From: Nitrospirota bacterium
Lineage (GTDB): Bacteria > Nitrospirota > Thermodesulfovibrionia > Thermodesulfovibrionales > Dissulfurispiraceae
Direction: 5' to 3'
NCBI GenBank assembly: GCA_021792185.1
Contig: JAJYVD010000008.1
Location: 1-64,000 of the forward strand
Length of the DNA: 64,000 nucleotides
Position 1 is the first letter of the stretch, and every line of letters begins with the position of its first letter. Positions 1,989-20,501 of the stretch are shown here, piece by piece. The position numbers were made by a program, and so were the translations under genes. Below the pieces are notes generated by a model. That model worked only from the letters and a program-made list of their open reading frames with translations. It did not search any database and was not told where the DNA came from.

Positions 1989-3116
1989 TCAACAGTTAAC
2001 CTTATTTTTGTCTGTCTCGACATGGCTGGAATTATTATTAGTTTTGTTCTCCTCTATTGTCTTCTCTGTCACTGCAGGGAAATAGATATCGAAAGTTGTC
2101 CCCATGTCTATTTTAGTGTCAACTTTAATATAACCTCCGCTTTGTTGAACGATTCCGTGAACTGTAGAAAGTCCGATGCCTGAACCGCTCTCCTTTGTTG
2201 TGAAAAACGGCTCAAAGATGTGAGCCTTTACATCTTTTGACATGCCTATTCCTGTATCCCTGAAAGAGAGAACTACATAGTGACAGGGCATCATATCAAA
2301 ACTTTCAGCAAGTATGCTCTCTGCATGTTCTGATGTCTCTATAATAAGAGTGCCGCCCTTTGGCATGGCATCCCTCGCATTGACAACCATGTTGATAATC
2401 ACCTGCTCGATCAGACATGGGTCAGCCTTTATATTTTTAAGGCCGCTCGAAAGTTTTACGATAAGCTCCATATCCTTTCCGGCAAGCTGCTTAAGTATTG
2501 GCTCCATCTCGATGATAATATTATGGAGATTGATAATCTTTGGTTCCATCGGTTGCTTTCGGCTGAATATAAGCAACTGTTTGGCGATATTTGAAGCCCT
2601 GCAGGCTGTATCAAGTATTTTGTCGAGGTTTTTATAGGCAGGGTGTTCTACACCTATATCCTGCATTGCCAGTTCGGAAAAACCCATTATAGCGCCCAGG
2701 TAATTATTAAAGTCATGCGCTATCCGCCCTGCCAATCTGCCTATTGCCTCCATCTTTTGCGCCTGATAGAACTGTTTTTCGATCTTTTTCCTTTCATCTA
2801 TCTCGAGCATCATTATAGAGGCCGTTTCTTTTATTTTATGGTACAGTTCTTGTTGAATGAGTCTGTGGTTTTTCAGAAATAATACAGGGATATTTTTTAA
2901 TCTGTCGTCATTTTTTATTCTGAGGTAGAATTCATAATTTTCATCAGGCGAGCTGATATTATCATTGCAGACAACGCAGATAATAAGGTCGGGGTTATCT
3001 CTGTCTGCTGCTGTCAGCACGTCTGTCCAGTCTTTAACAATCTCAACGGCACATCCTCGAGAGATAAAAATATCTTCCGACAAATTGCCGCTTCCGAGTA
3101 TAACTATCTTTTTCAT
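1989..3116 (-). CDS. Sensor histidine kinase with degenerate receiver-like N-terminus
   Basis: A 375-residue soluble NtrB-type kinase. Residues 1-85 resemble a receiver fold ([10 protein letters not shown] start, 'PDLIICVV') but lack the acidic pair and phospho-Asp, so this looks like a pseudo-receiver. A helix leads to the H-box 'AHDFNN' with His134, then a HATPase_c domain with N-box 'NARDAMPKGG', 'DTGIGM' and 'GSGIGLSTVHGIV'. The C-terminus is a polar tail. It overlaps the upstream cheD by 4 bp, so it belongs to the che operon. No DNA-binding partner lies next to it; its phosphoryl acceptor is unknown. Confidence 0.85.
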   Translation of the reverse strand: MKKIVILGSGNLSEDIFISRGCAVEIVKDWTDVLTAADRDNPDLIICVVCNDNISSPDENYEFYLRIKNDDRLKNIPVLFLKNHRLIQQELYHKIKETASIMMLEIDERKKIEKQFYQAQKMEAIGRLAGRIAHDFNNYLGAIMGFSELAMQDIGVEHPAYKNLDKILDTACRASNIAKQLLIFSRKQPMEPKIINLHNIIIEMEPILKQLAGKDMELIVKLSSGLKNIKADPCLIEQVIINMVVNARDAMPKGGTLIIETSEHAESILAESFDMMPCHYVVLSFRDTGIGMSKDVKAHIFEPFFTTKESGSGIGLSTVHGIVQQSGGYIKVDTKIDMGTTFDIYFPAVTEKTIEENKTNNNSSHVETDKNKVNC

Positions 3117-3664
3117 AATAAACCTCCATGGTCAGATCCATTTAGAAGTTTCGCCTTGATTTTTTTTACAAACACATCTCCGGTGTCCGTATGAAACATT
3201 ATCTCCCGTCCCACGTTTCCACCCACATCCGACCTTATTATCGGTATTCCCTTGTCTTTTAATATCTTTTTTGCAATCTCGATGTTTTTGTTGCCTATTT
3301 CCAAAGAACCGTTTGACTGCTCTACTCCCAAAAGTCTTCGACCTTTTGGGGACCCCTGCTGAAACACTCCGGCTCCGCCGAATACCTTTGCCATCAGGTT
3401 TCTTTTACTCCCTTTTTTGAACATTCTTTCGATCAATTCTCCTATGGCGATGTCTCCATATTTAAACGACGGCGATCCGTCACCGTTCCATGAGGGAAGC
3501 ATATAGTGATTGATTCCTCCTGTCTTTGTAACAGGATCCCACAGACATACGGATACGCATGAGCCTAAAACCGTCGTAACGATATGAGGCGCTTCTTCAA
3601 CTAAAAGAGAACCCGCATAAAGATAATGTTCTTTCCTTTCTGGTTGCTCTTTTAATGTAAACAT
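3113..3664 (-). CDS. cheD: Chemoreceptor glutamine deamidase CheD
   Basis: A 183-residue CheD. The catalytic Cys36 lies in '[12 protein letters not shown]' and His53 in 'GGINHYMLP', the conserved deamidase dyad. It deamidates specific Gln residues of MCPs and in many bacteria interacts with CheC or CheY-P; no cheC is seen in this window. It overlaps the cheB end by 13 bp and the following kinase start by 4 bp, pointing to translational coupling cheR-cheB-cheD-kinase. Confidence 0.93.
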
Positions 3665-4716
3665 ACCTTTATCGCTTCCCCGGCAATCCTTTCTAATGGG
3701 ACGACAACATCGACCGCATTTTTTTTAATTGCCTCTTTCGGCATTCCGAATACCACGCATGAGTCTTCATCCTGTGCGATATTGAACGCCCCTGCCTGTT
3801 TCATTTCGCTCATCCCCCTCGCTCCATCGTCTCCCATGCCGGTCATTATCACGCCTACTGCATTTTTACCTGCATGTTGAGCTGCAGAGCGGAAAAGCAC
3901 ATCAACGGACGGCCTGTGTCTGCTCACAAGAGGGCCGTCTTTTATCTCCACATAATATCTTGCGCCGCTCCTTTTCAAGAGCATATGTCTGTTGCCCGGC
4001 GCAATAAGCGCACGTCCTCTTATCACTGTATCATTGTCCTGGGCCTCTTTCACATCTATCCTGCAAAGGCCGTCGAGGCGCTTTGCAAAGGCGGAGGTAA
4101 AGCCTTCAGGCATGTGCTGCACAATAACAATACCAGGACAGTCCACAGGCATGGACTCAAGGACGACCCTTAATGCCTCGGTTCCACCTGTGGATGAGCC
4201 TATTGCCAACACCTTTTCTGTGGTCTGTATCATTGCCTTTGATGAAGGCTTTGGCAGCATAGCATCTGCAGAGAGCTTTGGCTCTGCCTTCACATGCTTT
4301 GCCATGCGGTCCAATCTGGCGGACGCTGCTGCCTTCACAGCATCGCATATGAGCGTCTTTGATTCCTCGATGAATTGTTTTGTGCCCATTCGGGGTTTCC
4401 GGATAACATCGACAGCTCCGTATTCCAGAGCCTTAAGGGCAGTTTCAGAACCTTTCTCTGCAAGGCTCGAGACTATAACCACAGGCATGGGATGTTGGGT
4501 CATAATTTTTTGCAGAAATGTAAGTCCATCCATCTTCGGCATCTCTATGTCGAGGGTTATGACATCAGGCGCCTCTTTTTTCATCTTCTCTGCAGCCTGA
4601 AAGGGGTCAGCCGCTGCTCCCATAACCTCTATCTGCGGATCTGAAGAAAGGATGCTGCTTAAGGTCTGTCTGACCACTGCGGAGTCGTCAACTATAAGAA
4701 CCTTTATGCCTTTCAT
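3652..4716 (-). CDS. cheB: Chemotaxis methylesterase CheB (copy 1)
   Basis: A 354-residue CheB: a receiver domain ('[12 protein letters not shown]', phospho-Asp in '[11 protein letters not shown]') followed by the C-terminal methylesterase with Ser in '[11 protein letters not shown]', His in 'VQHMPEGFT' and Asp in '[10 protein letters not shown]'. The ATG at 4716 is chosen because it directly follows the cheR stop and begins the receiver domain; an upstream in-frame start at 4818 would add 34 residues deep inside cheR. A second, separate cheB lies at 52.6 kb. Confidence 0.93.
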
Positions 4717-4717
4717 T

Positions 4718-5584
4718 TTATAATCTCCTGTAAACAGCAGGCGCAACCTGCTGAAGCGGAACATCCATTCCGTAAAGGCTCTCTGAATGCCCGATGAAAA
4801 GATACCCATCCCGTGCAAGATGACGGCAAAACTTCTTTACCACAGCTTCTTGCGTATCCCTTTCAAAGTAAATAAGCACATTTCTGCAAAAGATTATGTC
4901 TATCGGCTCTCGAAAACCGAAGTCTCCTTCCATGAAATTAAGCCTGCGAAATCTGACAAGAGACCTTATCTCGGGAGCGATCTTAACGAGCCCTTCATTT
5001 CTGTCGATGCCTTTTAAAAGATACTTCTTCCTCAATTCAATAGGTACAGGCTCTATTCTTTCTTCCCTGTAAACGCCATTCTCTGCTACAGCAAGCATCT
5101 CTGTGGAGATGTCAGTGGCGAGTATGAGAAAGCTGAAATCAGGATGATTGTCACCGAATGCCTTTATTGCCATTGCTATTGTGTAAGGCTCCTCCCCCGA
5201 AGAGCATCCGGCAGACCAGATTATAATCCTGCCGCATCTCGATTTCATTAGCTCCGGGAGGGCTGTATGCATCAGATAATCGAAGTGCTGCGCCTCTCTG
5301 AAGAATTCGGTCTTGTTTGTGGTCACGGCATTGAGCATGTACACGAGCTCCCTGTCCCTGCCTTCCGGACTGAAAATATATTCGCAGTATTTTTCAAAGG
5401 ACTTTATCCCCAGGCGATGAAGCCTCCTTTGCAGCCTTGTCTGAAGAATGACCTTTTTCGACGGAGGCAACTTTATTCCGAGTGTCGATTGAATAAAATC
5501 GCTCAATCGCCTGAAGTCCTTCTCTGTCATTGCTGCCGAATGGCCTATCTCTTCAAATATAGTCGGCATGGATAAACGGTTCAT
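4718..5584 (-). CDS. cheR: Chemotaxis methyltransferase CheR
   Basis: A 288-residue SAM-dependent MCP glutamate methyltransferase. The N-terminal all-alpha CheR_N domain (about residues 19-75) is followed by the Rossmann-like domain with '[16 protein letters not shown]' (SAM-binding), 'ILATDIS' and '[11 protein letters not shown]'. The exact start is uncertain: the longest form begins at 5584, inside the last 30 bases of the upstream MCP gene, and other in-frame ATGs are at 5569 and 5530; none has a strong ribosome site. There is no C-terminal TPR extension. Confidence 0.92.
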
Positions 5585-8012
5585 GAGCTGTATGCACTGC
5601 CTTTGCCCTGTGTGCCCCCTTAATGGCGATGGTCTCTCTGACCTCTGTTTGATTCATTCCTGCTCCATCCATCTTAAAGAAGGCTATTGCATTCTGCATC
5701 TGCTCTGCCATTTTCGCCAGTTCCTCTGATGTTGACGCTATCTCCTCCGATGCAGAGGCATTCTGCTGTGTCACATTGTTTAGCTGCTGTATCGCCTGAT
5801 TTATCTGGTTTACCCCTGTCTTCTGCTCCCTGCTCCCTGCTGCTATCTCCTGAACGAGTTCCGCTGTCCTCTGAATGTCAGGGACTAATTTCTTGAGCAT
5901 CTCACCTGCCTGTTCAGATATCCTGAGGCTGTTTGTTGAAAGCTGGGTTATCTCCCCTGCCGCTATCTGGCTCCTTTCAGCAAGCTTTCTTACCTCGGAG
6001 GCTACTACTGCAAAGCCCTTGCCGTGTTCTCCTGCCCTTGCAGCCTCTATTGCTGCATTCAATGCAAGCAGGTTTGTCTGTCTTGCTATCTCCTCTATGA
6101 TGGATATCTTCGTGGCAATATCCTTCATTGCCTCTACAGCGTCTGATACTGCCTTGCCTGATTCCCTTGCATCATCTGCTGACTTGAGGGCTATCTTTTC
6201 TGTCTGCTGTGCATTGTCCGCATTCTGCTCTATGGTGGAGGTCATCTGCTCCATAGATGACGATGTTTCTTCAATGGATGCCGCTTGTTCTGCTGCGCCC
6301 TGTGAGAGCTGCTGTGTGGTGGCGCTCAACTGCTCGCTGCCTGAGGCTACATTGGATGATGCGCCTGCAACATTGGAAACGACTTCGGTTAATTTCATTG
6401 CCATTCTTTCCATACCACCATATACACCTTCATTCTTGTTGGCATTTTTGCCAGTTGTCCCAAATTTTATGGTTAAATCGCCGCCGGCAATACACCCGGC
6501 GATACGGGCAATCTCTGCTGGTTCGCCTCCCAGTTGTTTTTTAATTGACCGGTAAATCCATGTGCCGATAACTATTCCGGATACTATTGCTCCAATCCCT
6601 ATGCCTGTAACTACCATTGTGCTCAGGCGAACCGTCCTGTTTACAGTGACAATGGCCTGTTCCTGTTCGCCCTGTGCGGTTATAACGGTCTTTTTGCCCC
6701 TTTCGGCCTGCTTCAAAACTATCTCCCTTAATCTTTCGGTGGCCTGCAGCGCCTTTTCCTTCATGGTAAGCTGATGTCTTATCTTTGCAATTATGCCGTC
6801 CCTTGCAAGCAGCAATCCTTTAATGGAATGCAATGCCCCTTTAACGTCATCGAGTGTCTTACCCTCCTCCCCGGCCCTTAATCTTGTAAGCGCCGTCTTA
6901 ATGGGTTTAATTGCATTATCTATTTTTTCAAAGGTCTTTTTGATCACGGACTCTATAAGGTCAACTTCCTTTGTGCTCGATATACCGGCGAAAAGCTGTG
7001 TCATCAAGCCCTCTACATTAGAACTTAGTACAGCGAGCTTCGAATTTCTCAAGAGGGCGTTATTAGCTGTGTTTACATCTTCCACCAGACTTCTCTGTTT
7101 TGCTGCAGCAGCCGCAGATTTCTCATTGACAGATGCTATCTCCTGCTCTGTGTTCAGTAAAATAACTAAGAGTTTCTCTGTTATTCCCTTCAATATCTCT
7201 TCGAATTTTGTTTTATCAGCGCCGGTCTTTTCGAGTATTTCCATCTGGCGCTCTACAAGATTACTTATCCTTTCAGCGATGAGCTTTATATCATCATGAA
7301 GATGCTTGGATTCTTTCACATGCTCATTCTGCAATGCCTTATTTATTGCTGAATTGGCCTTGCCGCGGGCTATGATAAGGGATTTCTTGTCGGGCGCTCG
7401 TTGGATCTCAAAAATAGAGACCTGTAAATCCTTTAATACCACTTTTAGATTCTCGATGTTTCTCATTTTCGATGTAATCACCTTTGCATCTTCCATCGAT
7501 GCATTAAAGGCTGCAGAACTGCTAAACTGGAGAGACATCATTTTTGTATCCATATCATCCAGTTTCACAAAGGCATCCTTTAGCTTCTGTGTAATGGTTT
7601 TGTTTGCTGTAACTGCATCTTCTTCGGCCTTTAATCTGCCTTCTGTTATTTCAAAAAGCTCCTTTGATATTTTGTTCAATTCATCATAGGTTTCCATTTT
7701 GGCGCTGCCGGAGAGGGATTGCAGCGCATCCTGTATTTTTTTAACCTCCGACAGTGACTTTTCAGAATCAGCGCGATTGGCTCTGTATTCTTCCATATTT
7801 CTTGAAGCGCTCACCTCGATTAGGTCGGCGGTGGCGCCCTGTATTGCCCTCTGAAATTCGAGCGTCCTTACCTGAAAAGGGGTGCTTCGTTCAGTGAGAT
7901 GGAAGAGTTTGGACTTAACAGAGCCCATCCCCGTGATGCTTGTGGCAACAACTGCGCCGGCTATCAGGACAATTACAACAACATTCAATGTAAGCTTTGT
8001 CTTTACTGTCAT
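5553..8012 (-). CDS. Methyl-accepting chemotaxis protein with long coiled-coil sensor (MCP1)
   Basis: An 819-residue transmembrane receptor. TM1 is about residues 8-28 and TM2 about 466-488, leaving an unusually long (about 435-residue) periplasmic segment that is strongly helical, with regular Lys/Glu and hydrophobic spacing. It resembles stacked helical bundles rather than Cache or 4HB. A HAMP-like region (about 489-545) leads to the MA signalling domain with the invariant hairpin tip '[20 protein letters not shown]'. Residues about 544-804 are identical to MCP2 downstream of cheW. No C-terminal CheR-binding pentapeptide is seen. The ligand is unknown. Confidence 0.9.
5600..6383 (-). repeat. 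784-bp direct repeat, copy 1 (MCP signalling domain)
   Basis: This stretch of MCP1 matches 8656-9439 of MCP2 at a constant offset of 3056 bp, with no gap and no mismatch found by eye. It covers the whole MA domain and the start of the tail. Identity stops abruptly at both ends: the HAMP side and C-terminal tail differ. This is expected for recent gene conversion or for a recent duplication followed by sensor replacement. Confidence 0.9.
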
Positions 8013-8530: not shown

Positions 8531-10225
8531 TTAGTATTTCTCAAAACCATCATCACTGTTGCCGTTTCCTATAGCAAGGGCCACACCTGCCGGCGCTGTC
8601 AGGGCCGGCTCTTTATGCGCCTCTGGCCTTCTGATTCCATGTGGTATATGAGCCACCTTTGCCCTGTGTGCCCCCTTAATGGCGATGGTCTCTCTGACCT
8701 CTGTTTGATTCATTCCTGCTCCATCCATCTTAAAGAAGGCTATTGCATTCTGCATCTGCTCTGCCATTTTCGCCAGTTCCTCTGATGTTGACGCTATCTC
8801 CTCCGATGCAGAGGCATTCTGCTGTGTCACATTGTTTAGCTGCTGTATCGCCTGATTTATCTGGTTTACCCCTGTCTTCTGCTCCCTGCTCCCTGCTGCT
8901 ATCTCCTGAACGAGTTCCGCTGTCCTCTGAATGTCAGGGACTAATTTCTTGAGCATCTCACCTGCCTGTTCAGATATCCTGAGGCTGTTTGTTGAAAGCT
9001 GGGTTATCTCCCCTGCCGCTATCTGGCTCCTTTCAGCAAGCTTTCTTACCTCGGAGGCTACTACTGCAAAGCCCTTGCCGTGTTCTCCTGCCCTTGCAGC
9101 CTCTATTGCTGCATTCAATGCAAGCAGGTTTGTCTGTCTTGCTATCTCCTCTATGATGGATATCTTCGTGGCAATATCCTTCATTGCCTCTACAGCGTCT
9201 GATACTGCCTTGCCTGATTCCCTTGCATCATCTGCTGACTTGAGGGCTATCTTTTCTGTCTGCTGTGCATTGTCCGCATTCTGCTCTATGGTGGAGGTCA
9301 TCTGCTCCATAGATGACGATGTTTCTTCAATGGATGCCGCTTGTTCTGCTGCGCCCTGTGAGAGCTGCTGTGTGGTGGCGCTCAACTGCTCGCTGCCTGA
9401 GGCTACATTGGATGATGCGCCTGCAACATTGGAAACGACATTTTTCAAGTTATCTACCATAGCCTTCATTGAGGCAAGCAATTGACCTGTCTCGTCCTTG
9501 CTCTTTGCCTCGATGTCAACGGTCAAATCACCCTTGGAGAGGCTGTTCATAACGCCGACACCTTCTCCGAGTGGTTTGGTTATGCTGGTTGCTATGAAGA
9601 ATGCCGTTCCTATAGCGAGGAGAATCGCTATGCCGCCGAGGGTAAACATGAAGGTGCGGGCCCTGTTATATGCCTCTACAGCCTGATTGTATCTCATCTC
9701 ACTGCGTTTTTCCTGCAATTTGATTAATCCATCTATCTCATTTATCCATTTTCTAAGTGAGGGCCTCGCCTCTTTATTCATAAAATCGAGGGTCTCGGCG
9801 CTCTTGTTATCGAGGGCTAACTCAATTACTTTGTTCTGTGACGAACTTGCAGCTTCCTGGGCAGCCTTGACCTTTGCAATTATTTCATGCCCCTCTCTGT
9901 CATCCTTAGGTGTAAGCTCCTCCACCTTTTTAAATAACCCGTCATACACTGCTCTGTTTTCTTCAATCTTTTTCTTATACTCCTGCTTTTTCCCGATGTC
10001 CGGTGTTAGCAACAAATTGCGAAGCTCTATGGCGCCCTCTTTCCCCACACCCTGCATATCACTGGCTGATTGTTGGCGGACACCATTAACTTTTACAATG
10101 CGTTGTAACTTGTCCTCGATGGTTACCATGTTGTTTATGGCTACAATAATTATGGCAACTATCAGAATCGCCACCAGTCCAAAGCCAAGCCCCAGCCTTA
10201 AACCTACCTTCATGTTCTTTAACAT
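8531..10225 (-). CDS. Methyl-accepting chemotaxis protein with 4HB-type sensor (MCP2)
   Basis: A 564-residue receptor. TM1 is about 11-31 and TM2 about 191-213, enclosing a roughly 160-residue helical sensor of 4HB_MCP length, followed by HAMP (about 214-266, 'ITKPLGEGV') and the MA domain. Residues about 263-523 are identical to MCP1. The tail is distinct and ends 'DDGFEKY', not the NWETF-type CheR tether. An aggagg site 7 bp upstream supports the start at 10225. It may be the first gene of the segment of the che operon downstream of the 10.2-10.9 kb gap. Confidence 0.92.
8656..9439 (-). repeat. 784-bp direct repeat, copy 2 (MCP signalling domain)
   Basis: Partner of 5600-6383; see that entry. 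Both copies are in the same orientation with cheW between them, so homologous recombination between them would delete cheW and fuse the two receptors. Confidence 0.9.
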
Positions 10226-10867: not shown

Positions 10868-11212
10868 ATGCAGGAAGCTGTAGAGAAAGAATATAAGACA
10901 GACCCGTTCAGCTTTGTATTCAGGGAACTCGATATAATCCACAGGGAGATTACCGAGTTAAAGGCTGAGATACGGGAAATCAACAAGCGACTCGATGATG
11001 TCAACAAGCGATTTGATTCTTTAAACGATAGTGTCAACAAGCGATTTGATGATGTCAACAAGCGATTTGATTCTTTAAACGATAGTGTCAACAAGCGATT
11101 TGATTCTTTAAACGATAGTGTCAACAAAAGGTTTGATAGGCTATATCTCCTTGTCATTGTAACCCTCATCGGCACACTCGGAAGCCTTGTAAAGCTTTTA
11201 TTTTTCTCATGA
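10868..11212 (+). CDS. Small hendecad coiled-coil protein with C-terminal membrane anchor
   Basis: A 114-residue protein of unknown function. After an N-terminal segment ('DPFSFVFRELDIIHREI') come repeated 11-residue units of the form VNKRFDSLNDS / VNKRFDDVNKRF, predicting a continuous right-handed coiled coil, then a single hydrophobic segment 'LLVIVTLIGTLGSLVKLLFF' at the C-terminus (tail anchor). It is the only plus-strand gene within the minus-strand chemotaxis cluster and converges on cheA with a 6-bp overlap. Similar short tail-anchored coiled coils accompany many mobile or TA-type loci, but no role is assigned here. Confidence 0.7.
   Translation: MQEAVEKEYKTDPFSFVFRELDIIHREITELKAEIREINKRLDDVNKRFDSLNDSVNKRFDDVNKRFDSLNDSVNKRFDSLNDSVNKRFDRLYLLVIVTLIGTLGSLVKLLFFS
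10981..11140 (+). repeat. Tandem 33-bp in-frame repeat
   Basis: The unit gtcaacaagcgatttgat followed by tctttaaacgatagt recurs several times in frame, with some units replacing the second half by gat. Near-identity of the units means copy number is likely to vary by slippage, lengthening the coiled coil in 11-residue steps. Confidence 0.85.
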
Positions 11213-13369
11213 TGTCTGCCTTATCCCCTCTGCTGACTGCACCAGATGAGGCACATCTATAATCAAGGCCACTGTGCCGTCTCCTAAAATAGTCGCCCCT
11301 GAAATCCCTTCCACATTCCTGTACATCCTTCCGAGGGACTTAATTACTGCCTGCACTTCTCCGTGGAGTTCATCTACAACAAGCCCTGTCTTCCGACCCG
11401 CATACCGAACCACCACGATGTTTTCATAAGGGGGTCTTACTCCATTTTCATCGAATAGCTCCTTCAGCCTCACATAGGGAAGAACCTCCCCGCGGAGGTT
11501 TATATAATGCCTCCTCTTTGCCTCTACTCGATCTGTCTCGGTCAGTTCTACGCACTCCACAACCATGTCCAGGGGGATTACATAGAAGTGTTTCCCGACC
11601 TTGACCATGAATCCATCGATAATGGCCAGTGTCAGGGGCAGGCGGATTCTGACGGTAGCGCCGATGCCTTCAGAGCTTTCAATCTCAACCATACCGCGGA
11701 GCGCCTCTACATTTCTTTTAACCACATCCATCCCAACGCCCCGGCCCGAGAGTTTTGTGACCTGTTCTGCGGTGGAAAAACCGGGTTCAAAGATGAGGTT
11801 GTATATCTCCCTGTCGGAAAGATTCTGTCCATGGCCGATCAATCCTCTTTCAACCGCCTTTTTCAGCACCTTTTCGCTGTTGATTCCCTTTCCGTTATCC
11901 GATACCTCGATGACTATACTTCCGGCATCCTGATAGGCATTGAGGGTTATGGCGCCTTTAGCGGGTTTTTTAGAGAGCAGCCGTTCATCGGGGAGTTCGA
12001 TGCCGTGGTCTATGGCATTGCGTATGAGATGCATAAGCGGGTCGTTTATCTTTTCTGTAACCGCCTTGTCGAGCTCTGTCTCTGCGCCGCTGATTATGAG
12101 GTCTATTTCCTTGCCTGCTTCCCGTCCTAAATCACGCACCAGCCTGTTAAACCTGCTGAATGTCTCACCTACAGGAACCATACGAACCTTCATTGCAACC
12201 CCTCTTATATCCTCCACAAGACGGGACATCTGCGAGGCGGACTCCTGAAGTCCGCTGTCATTAACACGGCGTGCATGCTGTTCAAGGGTTGCGCCTGAGA
12301 TCACAAGCTCTCCCACCATAGTGATGAGATAATCGAGTTTTTCTGCATCTACCCTGATAGTCTTTGCCTCTTTTGCCTTTGTATCTTTTGCGGATTTCTG
12401 TTTTTCAATGGCAGCGTCAACAACCTTTTTATGCACCATTCCTTCATTGACCAGTATATCTCCGATCCGGGGCTGAGGCTCTGTCCCTGCACTCTGAAGC
12501 CGCAGCGCATCTTCAAGCTCGGTTTCTGTCAAGGCTCCGCCCTTAACCAGCAACTCTCCTATGCGCGCAGGCTCTTCAGGCAGGTTGTTTAGAAGTTTGA
12601 TGAAAGACTCTATTGAACTTTTTGGAGGCAGTATGTGAATCTGTGCATCCTCCCTCACAAATTCGAATACATCCTCTATGGTCTTTTTGTCAAAATCGCT
12701 TTTAAAATTTATCTCGAATCCTAAATAGCACTCCTCAGGATTCATTTCAGAAGCAGGCGGCATGGCGTCTGTTATGGTTGTGATGCTTACTATCTCGCCC
12801 AATCTCGTAAGATAGTTTATAAAGGAGATGGGATCCATCCCGTCCCTTAATACATTGGGAGCTAATCTCAGGGATATATGATAGTTGTCTGATTTGACTG
12901 CCGAACATGATTTTTCATGCGTGTCGGTCTTTTCAGCGTCTCCTTCAGGTTTGAGCCATGCAGGTTTAAGATATGCGTTTAGTTTATTTGTGAGGGATTT
13001 CTCTGTATCTAAGGCATCCTGCTCAGGTGTTATTCCTGTTTTTTGGCCTTCAGAAGCTGACTGAAGGAGTCCTGCTATATGGTCCCTGCATTTAAGCAGC
13101 AGCTCTATTAGCTCACTATTTATCGGAATCTCTCCGAGCCTTGCCTTCTCCAGCAGGTTTTCCACCTTATGGGTGAACTGCTCGATATTTTCAAATCCTA
13201 CAATCCCTGCCGAGCCCTTGATTGTATGTGCGGCGCGGAAAATGGCATTGATTGTATCCTCATCATCAGGCGATTCTTCAATCGCAAGCAGCGCCTGCTC
13301 CATGTCTTGAAGGAGTTCCGATGCCTCGATTATAAATGTCTGTTTTGCTGCATCGAGATCTATCTGCAT
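11207..13369 (-). CDS. cheA: Chemotaxis histidine kinase CheA with two MshEN-like motifs
   Basis: A 720-residue CheA. The P1/Hpt domain carries phospho-His48 in 'AAHTIKGSAG'. A middle domain (about 163-250) is in the P2 position. Residues 269-292 and 301-324 are two 24-residue segments, RIGELLV...ALRLQ and RIGDILV...AIEKQ, matching the tandem c-di-GMP-binding motif known from MshEN domains. Then come the P3 dimerisation helices (about 335-400), HATPase ('LIRNAIDHGIE', 'GRGVGMDVVK') and a C-terminal CheW-like P5 domain. It overlaps the STAS gene stop by 10 bp. The c-di-GMP role is inferred from motif similarity. Confidence 0.93.
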   Translation of the reverse strand: MQIDLDAAKQTFIIEASELLQDMEQALLAIEESPDDEDTINAIFRAAHTIKGSAGIVGFENIEQFTHKVENLLEKARLGEIPINSELIELLLKCRDHIAGLLQSASEGQKTGITPEQDALDTEKSLTNKLNAYLKPAWLKPEGDAEKTDTHEKSCSAVKSDNYHISLRLAPNVLRDGMDPISFINYLTRLGEIVSITTITDAMPPASEMNPEECYLGFEINFKSDFDKKTIEDVFEFVREDAQIHILPPKSSIESFIKLLNNLPEEPARIGELLVKGGALTETELEDALRLQSAGTEPQPRIGDILVNEGMVHKKVVDAAIEKQKSAKDTKAKEAKTIRVDAEKLDYLITMVGELVISGATLEQHARRVNDSGLQESASQMSRLVEDIRGVAMKVRMVPVGETFSRFNRLVRDLGREAGKEIDLIISGAETELDKAVTEKINDPLMHLIRNAIDHGIELPDERLLSKKPAKGAITLNAYQDAGSIVIEVSDNGKGINSEKVLKKAVERGLIGHGQNLSDREIYNLIFEPGFSTAEQVTKLSGRGVGMDVVKRNVEALRGMVEIESSEGIGATVRIRLPLTLAIIDGFMVKVGKHFYVIPLDMVVECVELTETDRVEAKRRHYINLRGEVLPYVRLKELFDENGVRPPYENIVVVRYAGRKTGLVVDELHGEVQAVIKSLGRMYRNVEGISGATILGDGTVALIIDVPHLVQSAEGIRQTS

Positions 13370-13668
13370 AATCCCTGCGCCATTTCCCCAATTTCTATAT
13401 TTAATAGTTTCATTACATTTCTGACTGCATTGTTCATTGTAATGTTCAACTCTCGATGGCGGCGTTGTGCCTCATTGTTCAGCATAATAAGGAGCTGAAT
13501 CCCTGATGTGTCTATTTCATTTACATTGAAGAGGTCAAGTTCTATTCTGGGGCACTCTGAAATCGCATTTAATAAATGATCTTTAATTGCAGAGGCGTTA
13601 TAGATATTCATTTCCCCTTCTATCATTACCCTGCAAACTCCGTTTGTCATTGCAACGCTTACAGGCAT
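13360..13668 (-). CDS. STAS-domain protein (anti-sigma-factor-antagonist-like)
   Basis: A 102-residue stand-alone STAS domain. The family's phosphorylatable motif is present as 'NEIDTSGIQLLI' (about residues 50-61). It sits between cheY and cheA, overlapping cheA by 10 bp. Such STAS proteins are frequent in che clusters of this type, but their partner there is not established. A second, divergent STAS-like protein lies at 17.9 kb. No anti-sigma kinase of the SpoIIAB type is seen nearby. Confidence 0.85.
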   Translation of the reverse strand: MPVSVAMTNGVCRVMIEGEMNIYNASAIKDHLLNAISECPRIELDLFNVNEIDTSGIQLLIMLNNEAQRRHRELNITMNNAVRNVMKLLNIEIGEMAQGLCR

Positions 13669-13681
13669 GGTCTTCTCCTTT

Positions 13682-14050
13682 TCATGGCAGTATCAGTTTT
13701 TCAATTGCTGTGAGCATGGTCTCGGGCTTGAACGGCTTAACAACCCATGCCTTTGCCCCTGCAGCCTTTCCTTCCTGCATTTTGGCTTCTTGAGATTCTG
13801 TTGTAAGCATTATCACAGGAGTGAATTTGTAGCCTGCATTTTGCTTTAATTCCTTGAGAAATGTAATGCCGTCCATGTTCGGCATGTTCACATCACATAT
13901 GATGAGATGTATCTTCTGCCCGTTGAGTTTATTTATTGCGTCTTTTCCGTCAACTGCCTCTATGACAACATAACCGCTTTTGCCGAGCGTAATATTTACC
14001 ACCTGCCTAATGGATGCCGAATCATCGATTATCATTATTGTCTTTGCCAT
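13682..14050 (-). CDS. cheY: CheY-like response regulator
   Basis: A 122-residue single receiver domain. The acidic pair is in 'MIIDDSASIRQ', the phospho-Asp in 'LIICDVNMPNMDG', the conserved Thr in 'IMLTTES' and the Lys in 'WVVKPFKPE'. It stands immediately upstream of the STAS gene and cheA, making it the best candidate for the CheA target that acts on the flagellar motor or another output. Confidence 0.9.
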   Translation of the reverse strand: MAKTIMIIDDSASIRQVVNITLGKSGYVVIEAVDGKDAINKLNGQKIHLIICDVNMPNMDGITFLKELKQNAGYKFTPVIMLTTESQEAKMQEGKAAGAKAWVVKPFKPETMLTAIEKLILP

Positions 14051-18632: not shown

Positions 18633-20501
18633 TCAATGTCCGTTCACCCGCCTATCCATCAGGATGGATGATCTCCCAAAAGAGCATGACTGCATCTTTG
18701 CGCCCTTTTTCACCTCTGTGGCTATGGATGCCAGTTCCGCGTAAGATGCAAATTTGTGAGTCTCCATGTTGACAATTCCGATGGATATGCTGAGGAGATT
18801 GCATCGCTCCTCCTCACCCCTCCTGTTTTTTGATATATAGTGTCCCCTTTCATAATCATCCCTTTCATGGAACTCTAAGAGTCTCGATTCAAAGTCCGCA
18901 ATCACCTTCTCGCATACGGGCATGGAAATCCGAGGGCGGAGTAACATTATAAAGTCATCGCCGCCGATATGTCCCACAAAATTGAACTCGTCATTATATG
19001 GGGCAATGTTGTCCACCAGTATTTCTGCAAGTGTTTTTATCACAACATCTCCCCTGCTAAAGCCGTAATAGTCGTTATAGGGTTTGAAATTATCCAGGTC
19101 AATATAGCAGACATCAAAGTGCATGGTCATGGAAAGCTTTTTTTCTATTTCCCTCTGTATGAATTCGTTCCCGGGCAGTCCTGTAAGGGGATTAGCCCCC
19201 TTTGCGAGGATAAGGCTTTTTTCGGTTATTGCTTCCAGGAGTGTGTTAACCGGCACCATGCCGTAAAATTTGCCTGTTTTTGTGACACAGATGTCATCGT
19301 ATATGAATTCGAACTGGCGCATCTGAAGCCTTTGTGCTGCATCTTCTATTGTAGTGTTTGACTCGGCTATCATAGATGGCTGTTCCATAAGGTCTTTTAT
19401 GCGTTTTGCTGCGTTGAGATACATGCCATAGCCGTATTTGCCGAGTACATTGTTTTCTAAGAATCTGTTTCTTTGCAGAATCCCAACAATCCTGTCGTCA
19501 GCGACAACAGGCAAGTTTCGGATTTTATAGTTGTTTATAAATCTATTAAATGCATCTGTAATATGGGCATCCGGCGATATTGGTTCGATTCTATCTACAA
19601 TATCGCCTATAAGAGATGGCTCTTTGTTATATTGGTAGATGTTTACTTTTTTGTAATTCAACGCTGAAATCTCGATGGGAGTGGTTCTTAAAAGTAGCTG
19701 GGGTCTGCAGAGATAACAACCCTGCAGCAGGTCAATTCCCATGTTGATCACGACTTTAAGTTCTTCTTCCCGCTCTATGCCGTCTGTAATAACCTTTATT
19801 CCGAGCCTGTGGCATGCGGAGGCTATGGAATCAACGAGGTTGAATTTTATGGTCGCCTTGTCTATGCTGGATACGAAATGCCGGTCTATTTTTACGAAGT
19901 CCGGCTCTATTACCGAGAGCATTTTCAATCCTCCGTAGCCTGCCCCGAAGTCGTCTATGGCTATTTTATAGCCACTTTGTTTGGAGTGCGAAACGGCCTT
20001 CTCAAAGAGGTCATAATTTATAATTGATGCCCCTTCTGTTATTTTCAGGACAATCCTCTCCTTTGGCATTCCAAAACTTTCGGCAATGTCGTCCGTTATG
20101 CCGCATCGGCATGAGGGGTCTGTTAGAGTTTCTGGGCAGATATTTATGAACAAAAGGCTTCCGTTCTCTTTTATGCCGAGGGCTGCAGCCTCTCTCACGG
20201 CGGTCTTACGGGCTGCATAGTCCAGGGGAAATATGGTGTCTGTATTAATCGCCTTTTTAAAAAGCTCTCCACTATTTACATTTATTTTGTTGTTATGCTT
20301 ATCTTTTAACCTTGTCAGCGCCTCGTAACCGTAAACCGAGCCGTCCTTTGCGGAGAAGACGGGCTGAAAATGGGTTGTGAACGAATCGTTGTCGAGAAGT
20401 TCGAGTATCGTCTGCCTGTCTATCCCGCTTTGATTGATTTTTTTTTCAAAGACGCGGTCATCATCGTCTAAGGTTATATCCCATTTTGATCTTACAGTCA
20501 T
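18633..20501 (-). CDS. EAL-CBS-GGDEF c-di-GMP turnover protein
   Basis: A 622-residue cytoplasmic protein with the domains in the order EAL (about 35-270), two CBS repeats (about 300-425) and GGDEF (about 435-600). The EAL motif is at 60-62 and catalytic-type residues appear intact ('FINICPETL', 'KITEGA', 'DDFGAGYGG', 'VKIDR'). The cyclase site is 'GGDDF' (513-517), the active variant class. CBS pairs usually bind adenine nucleotides and could gate either activity. It sits at the head of the signalling cluster that encodes the MshEN-bearing CheA. Confidence 0.92.
   Translation of the reverse strand: MTVRSKWDITLDDDDRVFEKKINQSGIDRQTILELLDNDSFTTHFQPVFSAKDGSVYGYEALTRLKDKHNNKINVNSGELFKKAINTDTIFPLDYAARKTAVREAAALGIKENGSLLFINICPETLTDPSCRCGITDDIAESFGMPKERIVLKITEGASIINYDLFEKAVSHSKQSGYKIAIDDFGAGYGGLKMLSVIEPDFVKIDRHFVSSIDKATIKFNLVDSIASACHRLGIKVITDGIEREEELKVVINMGIDLLQGCYLCRPQLLLRTTPIEISALNYKKVNIYQYNKEPSLIGDIVDRIEPISPDAHITDAFNRFINNYKIRNLPVVADDRIVGILQRNRFLENNVLGKYGYGMYLNAAKRIKDLMEQPSMIAESNTTIEDAAQRLQMRQFEFIYDDICVTKTGKFYGMVPVNTLLEAITEKSLILAKGANPLTGLPGNEFIQREIEKKLSMTMHFDVCYIDLDNFKPYNDYYGFSRGDVVIKTLAEILVDNIAPYNDEFNFVGHIGGDDFIMLLRPRISMPVCEKVIADFESRLLEFHERDDYERGHYISKNRRGEEERCNLLSISIGIVNMETHKFASYAELASIATEVKKGAKMQSCSFGRSSILMDRRVNGH

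Follow-up and report, generated by a model that had tools for sequence, protein, structure and literature searches.

A predicted MshEN_N-type c-di-GMP module between the P2-like and P3 domains of a chemotaxis kinase CheA from a Nitrospirota bacterium

The CheA protein encoded in a 64,000-nucleotide stretch of a Nitrospirota genome (assembly GCA_021792185.1, contig JAJYVD010000008.1, positions 1 to 64,000; hereafter the window) contains, ahead of its P3 dimerisation domain, a module assigned to the MshEN_N type by a profile HMM and by its predicted fold. This module probably binds c-di-GMP and may thereby alter P1 access or phosphotransfer. The c-di-GMP and chemotaxis systems are the two main systems deciding bacterial movement, and the known links between them lie at the receptors, the methyltransferase and the motor. 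If CheA itself does hold a c-di-GMP pocket, the two systems would be coupled at their central node, in a range of organisms that includes methanotrophs as well as Nitrospirota.

Domain order of CheA

The cheA gene lies inside a che cluster with genes for CheY, STAS, MCPs, CheR, CheB and CheD, and Pfam matches to Hpt, H-kinase_dim, HATPase_c and CheW were found in this order in its product. The features of the gene and its surroundings are as follows.

11207-13369, minus strand: cheA, 720 amino acids, domain order P1-P2-MshEN_N-P3-P4-P5
13088-13342, minus strand: P1 (Hpt), residues 10-94, Pfam Hpt E 1.4e-19
12620-12883, minus strand: P2-like region, approximately residues 163-250, alpha/beta ferredoxin-like fold predicted in the AlphaFold2 model of residues 158-400
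12398-12565, minus strand: MshEN_N-type predicted c-di-GMP module, residues 269-324 (NF053729; AlphaFold2 four-helix model; fold matches to 5htl, 8pdk and 9gl5)
12494-12565, minus strand: motif I, residues 269-292, contact positions R269, I270, G271, L285, L289 and Q292
12470-12493, minus strand: 8-residue spacer between the motifs, residues 293-300
12398-12469, minus strand: motif II, residues 301-324, contact positions R301, I302, G303, V317, I321 and Q324
12185-12364, minus strand: P3 dimerisation domain, residues 336-395, Pfam H-kinase_dim E 4e-15
11630-12043, minus strand: P4 (HATPase_c), residues 443-580, Pfam
11231-11614, minus strand: P5 (CheW-like), residues 586-713, Pfam
13360-13668, minus strand: single-domain STAS protein, upstream neighbor of cheA, Pfam STAS E 1.3e-10
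13682-14050, minus strand: CheY-like receiver, Pfam Response_reg E 1.2e-29
3113-5584, minus strand: cheD (3113-3664), cheB (3652-4818) and cheR (4718-5584)
18633-20501, minus strand: EAL-CBS-GGDEF protein, about 5 kb upstream of cheA

The preliminary description had placed the two motifs between P2 and P3. Their position ahead of P3 (residues 336-395) stands, and the identity of P2 is better worded as P2-like: Pfam gave no P2 match in CheA up to E 10, a Foldseek search with the 158-400 model returned only generic ferredoxin-like PDB matches, to this region, and residues 163-250 are taken as P2 from their position and predicted fold. A che gene order with a single-domain STAS gene is known from the literature; the chemosensory F class is left unassigned.

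The tandem motifs match an MshEN_N profile

The two 24-residue MshEN-like segments first noticed in CheA agreed exactly with the translation of the gene (11207-13369, minus strand) in coordinates, residue numbers and 8-residue spacing. Motif I is RIGELLVKGGALTETELEDALRLQ (residues 269-292, nt 12565-12494) and motif II is RIGDILVNEGMVHKKVVDAAIEKQ (residues 301-324, nt 12469-12398). Neither fits the strict consensus of 2016 and both fit the relaxed pattern of the MshEN discoverers (PMC5013675). Among 20,000 shuffles of the CheA sequence, a single relaxed motif occurred in 527 and a tandem pair in none. The NCBIfam model NF053729 (c-di-GMP_motif, 53 positions), which describes the MshE-type c-di-GMP-binding motif pair, matched residues 269-324 of CheA above its cutoff of 38 (39.5 bits, E 3.5e-10; 41.9 bits in a 243-residue fragment), so that the proposed HMM comparison bore out the MshEN-like character of the segments. 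The same model matched every one of the 48 CheA fragments in the alignment (E <= 0.01), and 33-44 of these 48 also matched models of NfrB-type (c-di-GMP-activated) glycosyltransferases. A PDB sequence search retrieved T. thermophilus PilF (4.4e-7), PilB (3.2e-4) and MshE 5htl (0.007).

The second model proposed for comparison, PF05157, gave no match in CheA up to E 10, and only residues 325-335 separate the module from P3. In the PilB-type proteins of the same genome, the PF05157 match starts just after the NF053729 match, which indicates that PF05157 covers the C-terminal MshEN subdomain. This subdomain is absent from CheA, therefore the comparison is uninformative for the motifs; a full MshEN domain was not found, and the profile matches assign to CheA the 53-residue MshEN_N binding half only. 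Residues 1-62 of MshE, its N-terminal subdomain alone, bind c-di-GMP with a KD of 0.35 uM (PMC5013675); thus CheA would carry the half that is sufficient for binding.

Predicted fold of the module

A 75-residue module fragment was modeled by AlphaFold2 with 48 relatives, and a bundle of four helices was predicted (residues 13-20, 25-37, 45-51 and 57-74 of the fragment) with a mean pLDDT of 79 and a pTM of 0.61, by a method whose training included MshE structures and in a ligand-free model. The best Foldseek matches were two c-di-GMP-bound structures, MshE and PilF GSPII-B, with a TM score of about 0.7 on the query; their E-values of 0.3 are weak owing to the short length of the fragment. The fold matches also included PilB N-domain-PilZ complexes of Xanthomonas. 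In VIA-align, the c-di-GMP-bound PilF and MshE structures reached Z 10.2-9.6 over 59-63 of 75 residues (5htl_B of MshE: Z 10.1, rmsd 1.8 A, 59 residues, 32% identity), PilB N-domains about 8 and the nearest non-MshEN chain 5.8, all in the range (Z < 13) in which helical bundles can share a mere common arrangement. This caveat is offset by the fact that the top fold rows all belong to one family, which was named independently by the sequence profile. The expectation that structure prediction would return an MshEN fold was thus borne out at the level of a model, and the profile HMM and the predicted fold, each independent of the other, both support the assignment of the module to the MshEN_N type.

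Short amphipathic repeats are common and neither motif fits the strict consensus, which would favor a flexible linker whose helix-turn-helix repeats arose by chance or by convergence. Such an origin is extremely unlikely, as the profile match, the shuffles, the fold match and the cross-phylum conservation described below are all contrary to it, and it was rejected on these grounds.

Ligand-contact residues in comparison with proven binders

In MshE, c-di-GMP is contacted by motif positions 1, 2, 3, 17, 21 and 24, with the polar contacts provided by Gln24 and by Gly3, the latter jointly with the backbone NH that follows it (PMC5013675). These positions read R/I/G/L/L/Q in motif I and R/I/G/V/I/Q in motif II of CheA; all six per motif are kept with conservative changes only, and Gly3 and Gln24 are present in both motifs (G271, Q292, G303 and Q324). 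Of the conservative variants remarked upon earlier, Ile for Leu is tolerated in PilF of Thermus, in which Gly3 and Gln24 matter and position 1 may be Lys or Leu with even tighter binding (PMC11731258).

The CheA module shares with MshE (5HTL; PMC5013675) the two 24-residue motifs, the four-helix bundle and the contact residues. MshE differs in its spacer of 5 residues, in the presence of MshEN_C and in the location of the domain at the N-terminus of an ATPase rather than between P2 and P3. The best-scoring relatives in both structure and sequence are GSPII-B and GSPII-C of T. thermophilus PilF (PMC11731258), a pilus assembly ATPase which, unlike CheA, has the C-terminal subdomain and a tested function. 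GSPII-C (motif I R304-Q327, motif II from P335) shares with most beta- and gammaproteobacterial CheA relatives a Pro in the first position of motif II; its spacer has 7 residues, and it still binds with a KD of about 0.3-0.5 uM (PMC11731258). GSPII-B has Lys/Leu at position 1, and Leu is common there in deltaproteobacterial CheA relatives. The spacer of 8 residues is indeed a little longer than the classical one; since GSPII-C binds with 7 residues and CheA relatives span 5-24, it is probably no obstacle.

Conservation of the contacts among CheA relatives

For comparison, 63 CheA relatives were fetched, with a small bias to module-bearing proteins from one of the six search peptides, which lay in motif II. 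An early count of 47 relatives out of 63 with Gly3/Gln24 was discarded as conservation evidence, since these residues had served to pick the sequences and the count was circular. It was replaced by a selection on hydrophobic-core positions alone, with the contacts Gly3/Gln24 excluded, which 44 of 64 sequences passed in both motifs. Gly3 and Gln24 of both motifs were invariant in 44/44 of these core-selected proteins, and the four columns ranked 10th to 16th among the most conserved of 720. The module as a whole is more variable (mean column entropy 1.66 bits) than P2 (1.31 bits) and P3-P5 (1.15 bits), and its exposed positions mostly vary freely. That the four polar contacts are invariant while the domain around them varies more than the kinase core speaks for ligand binding having been kept. 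Position 1 was R, K or L in motif I and P, L, R or K in motif II, with Pro in many relatives, and Gly10 of motif II was often lost, mostly in beta/gammaproteobacteria. In a separate draw on 143 gammaproteobacterial genomes with a P2-MshEN-P3 profile, the module was present in 11 fetched CheA proteins, 9 of which keep all four Gly3/Gln24 residues according to an alignment read by eye.

The conservation data also bear on a different reading, in which MshEN_N would be kept as a docking or spacer element for STAS, CheW, PilZ or another partner. XpsE has the MshEN fold without c-di-GMP binding (PMC5013675), and PilF GSPII-A does not bind even after its consensus was restored (PMC11731258), so that retention of the fold without binding, as in some pilus and secretion ATPase N-domains, has precedent. 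The Xanthomonas PilB N-domain-PilZ complexes among the fold matches, the STAS gene adjoining cheA and the variability of motif II positions 1 and 10 in many CheA proteins point in the same direction. However, a docking element has no obvious need for Gly3 and Gln24 in both motifs, and the polar contacts were invariant in a set selected without them while most exposed positions were free to vary. We consider docking a minority possibility, clearly less probable than ligand binding.

Proposed role in kinase control

The MshEN_N module, in which a single pocket of four helices is predicted to arise from the two helix-turn-helix motifs, follows the mobile P1-P2 arm and precedes the P3 hairpin, and most likely one c-di-GMP is bound per CheA chain. 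In the 158-400 model, the last MshEN helix (model residues 157-178) runs straight to the P3 hairpin. Binding of c-di-GMP would close the bundle and make it stiffer, and since its last helix is predicted to continue into the P3 connector, the stiffening may alter the reach of P1 to the P4 domain of the partner, or the transfer of phosphate to CheY. CheA would in this way integrate receptor signals with the cellular c-di-GMP level. As for the direction, our guess is a lower kinase output at high c-di-GMP.

Alternatively, c-di-GMP could be bound with localisation or sequestration of CheA as the outcome, for example in array assembly or clustering, in place of kinase allostery. The location of the module, which is not part of the catalytic core and is linked to it by a connector, would allow this. 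Its position next to P3, with the last helix running into the P3 connector, suits conformational coupling, and one CheA relative (L118) that is missing the module still retains this last helix, HPELVETAVKKQ, before P3. This retention suggests a structural function for the helix itself. Localisation as the sole outcome is accordingly judged improbable, and allosteric control of the kinase is the preferred reading.

Distribution, losses and a short-spacer variant

In a P3-P5 tree of 96 rows, a quick tree with many weak forks, the CheA proteins with a module and a spacer of 5-24 residues fell into one large grouping with scattered losses. The record labels of its members are Nitrospirae, Deferribacteres, Deltaproteobacteria, beta/gammaproteobacteria and Spirochaetes; the groups covered are Nitrospirota, Deferribacterota, 'Deltaproteobacteria', Pseudomonadota and Spirochaetota. 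The module is lost or degraded in CheA proteins of Photobacterium, Leptospiraceae and Thiomargarita.

The same genome encodes a second module-bearing CheA (contig C62) with a spacer of 1 residue, a form that recurs in 15 CheA proteins from a single family within this phylum. A 25-residue tandem, with Gly3 and Gln24 throughout, was observed in the following CheA proteins of the phylum: L074 (the C62 protein, G000), L077, L079-L088, L091-L094, L096 and L100. In the 1-residue form the motifs may be joined by a tight turn, the two chains of the CheA dimer may build the pocket together, or binding may have been lost. The third CheA of the genome (contig C78) is without the module. An ancient, cross-phylum CheA lineage gated directly by c-di-GMP, perhaps with a pocket formed across the dimer in the 1-residue-spacer proteins, is a possibility that we rate at somewhat below even odds, with less confidence than binding by the window CheA itself. 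In such a lineage, CheA would act as a coincidence detector, reading receptor signals together with the motile/sessile messenger.

Relation to described systems

The preliminary description knew of no described mechanism of direct c-di-GMP control of the chemotaxis kinase. The CheA-MshEN association as such is not new: Wang et al. (2016; PMC5013675) name MshEN-CheA and MshEN-CheX associations, in one phrase, as suggesting c-di-GMP involvement. The MshEN-CheA of that phrase is the same domain combination as here, and is only named there; the listing of the fusion in 2016 reduces the claim to novelty. The main text of a 2023 survey of CheA architectures (PMC10782961) is silent on MshEN and c-di-GMP, and no experimental follow-up or direct c-di-GMP binding by CheA was found in the open-access literature. 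Three described systems bring c-di-GMP into chemotaxis elsewhere: MapZ through an adaptor on the CheR1 methyltransferase and not a kinase domain (PMC6370697), the PilZ chemoreceptor Cbp1 at the receptor and not inside the kinase (PMC6454048), and the Cle proteins, CheY-like motor-binding regulators, outside the kinase (PMC5677366). The CheA of the window is a well-supported and under-described case of a known domain fusion rather than a new kind of system. The suggestion of 2016 is now directly testable with four residues, a 75-residue fragment and many natural variants including losses.

c-di-GMP genes and other features of the neighborhood

Besides 12 GGDEF matches, the genome contains PilZ proteins, the flagellar switch protein FliM and further MshEN proteins. 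GGDEF proteins are encoded in 44/44 searched genomes of module-bearing relatives and in 49/49 overall; as the genomes of module-free relatives have GGDEF too, its presence does not discriminate and was set aside as support. The EAL-CBS-GGDEF gene, which had been cited as pointing to c-di-GMP control, is present near cheA; as functional support it is weak, since in a regular-expression screen c-di-GMP enzyme genes flanked only 5/50 module-bearing CheA relatives (1/13 module-free ones) and the linkage to cheA is not conserved. Its product keeps the EALTR and DDFGAG motifs and has GGDDF for GGDEF; where an EAL domain usually shows AEGVE, it reads TDGIE.

Two chemoreceptor genes (5553-8012 and 8531-10225) flank cheW and share 261 consecutive identical residues (784 identical bases) in the signaling domain, which suggests a recent duplication or gene conversion. 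Finally, a small ORF (10868-11212, plus strand), which runs towards the 3' end of cheA from the opposite side, contains near-identical tandem repeats that translate into NKRFDxxN-type coiled-coil units.
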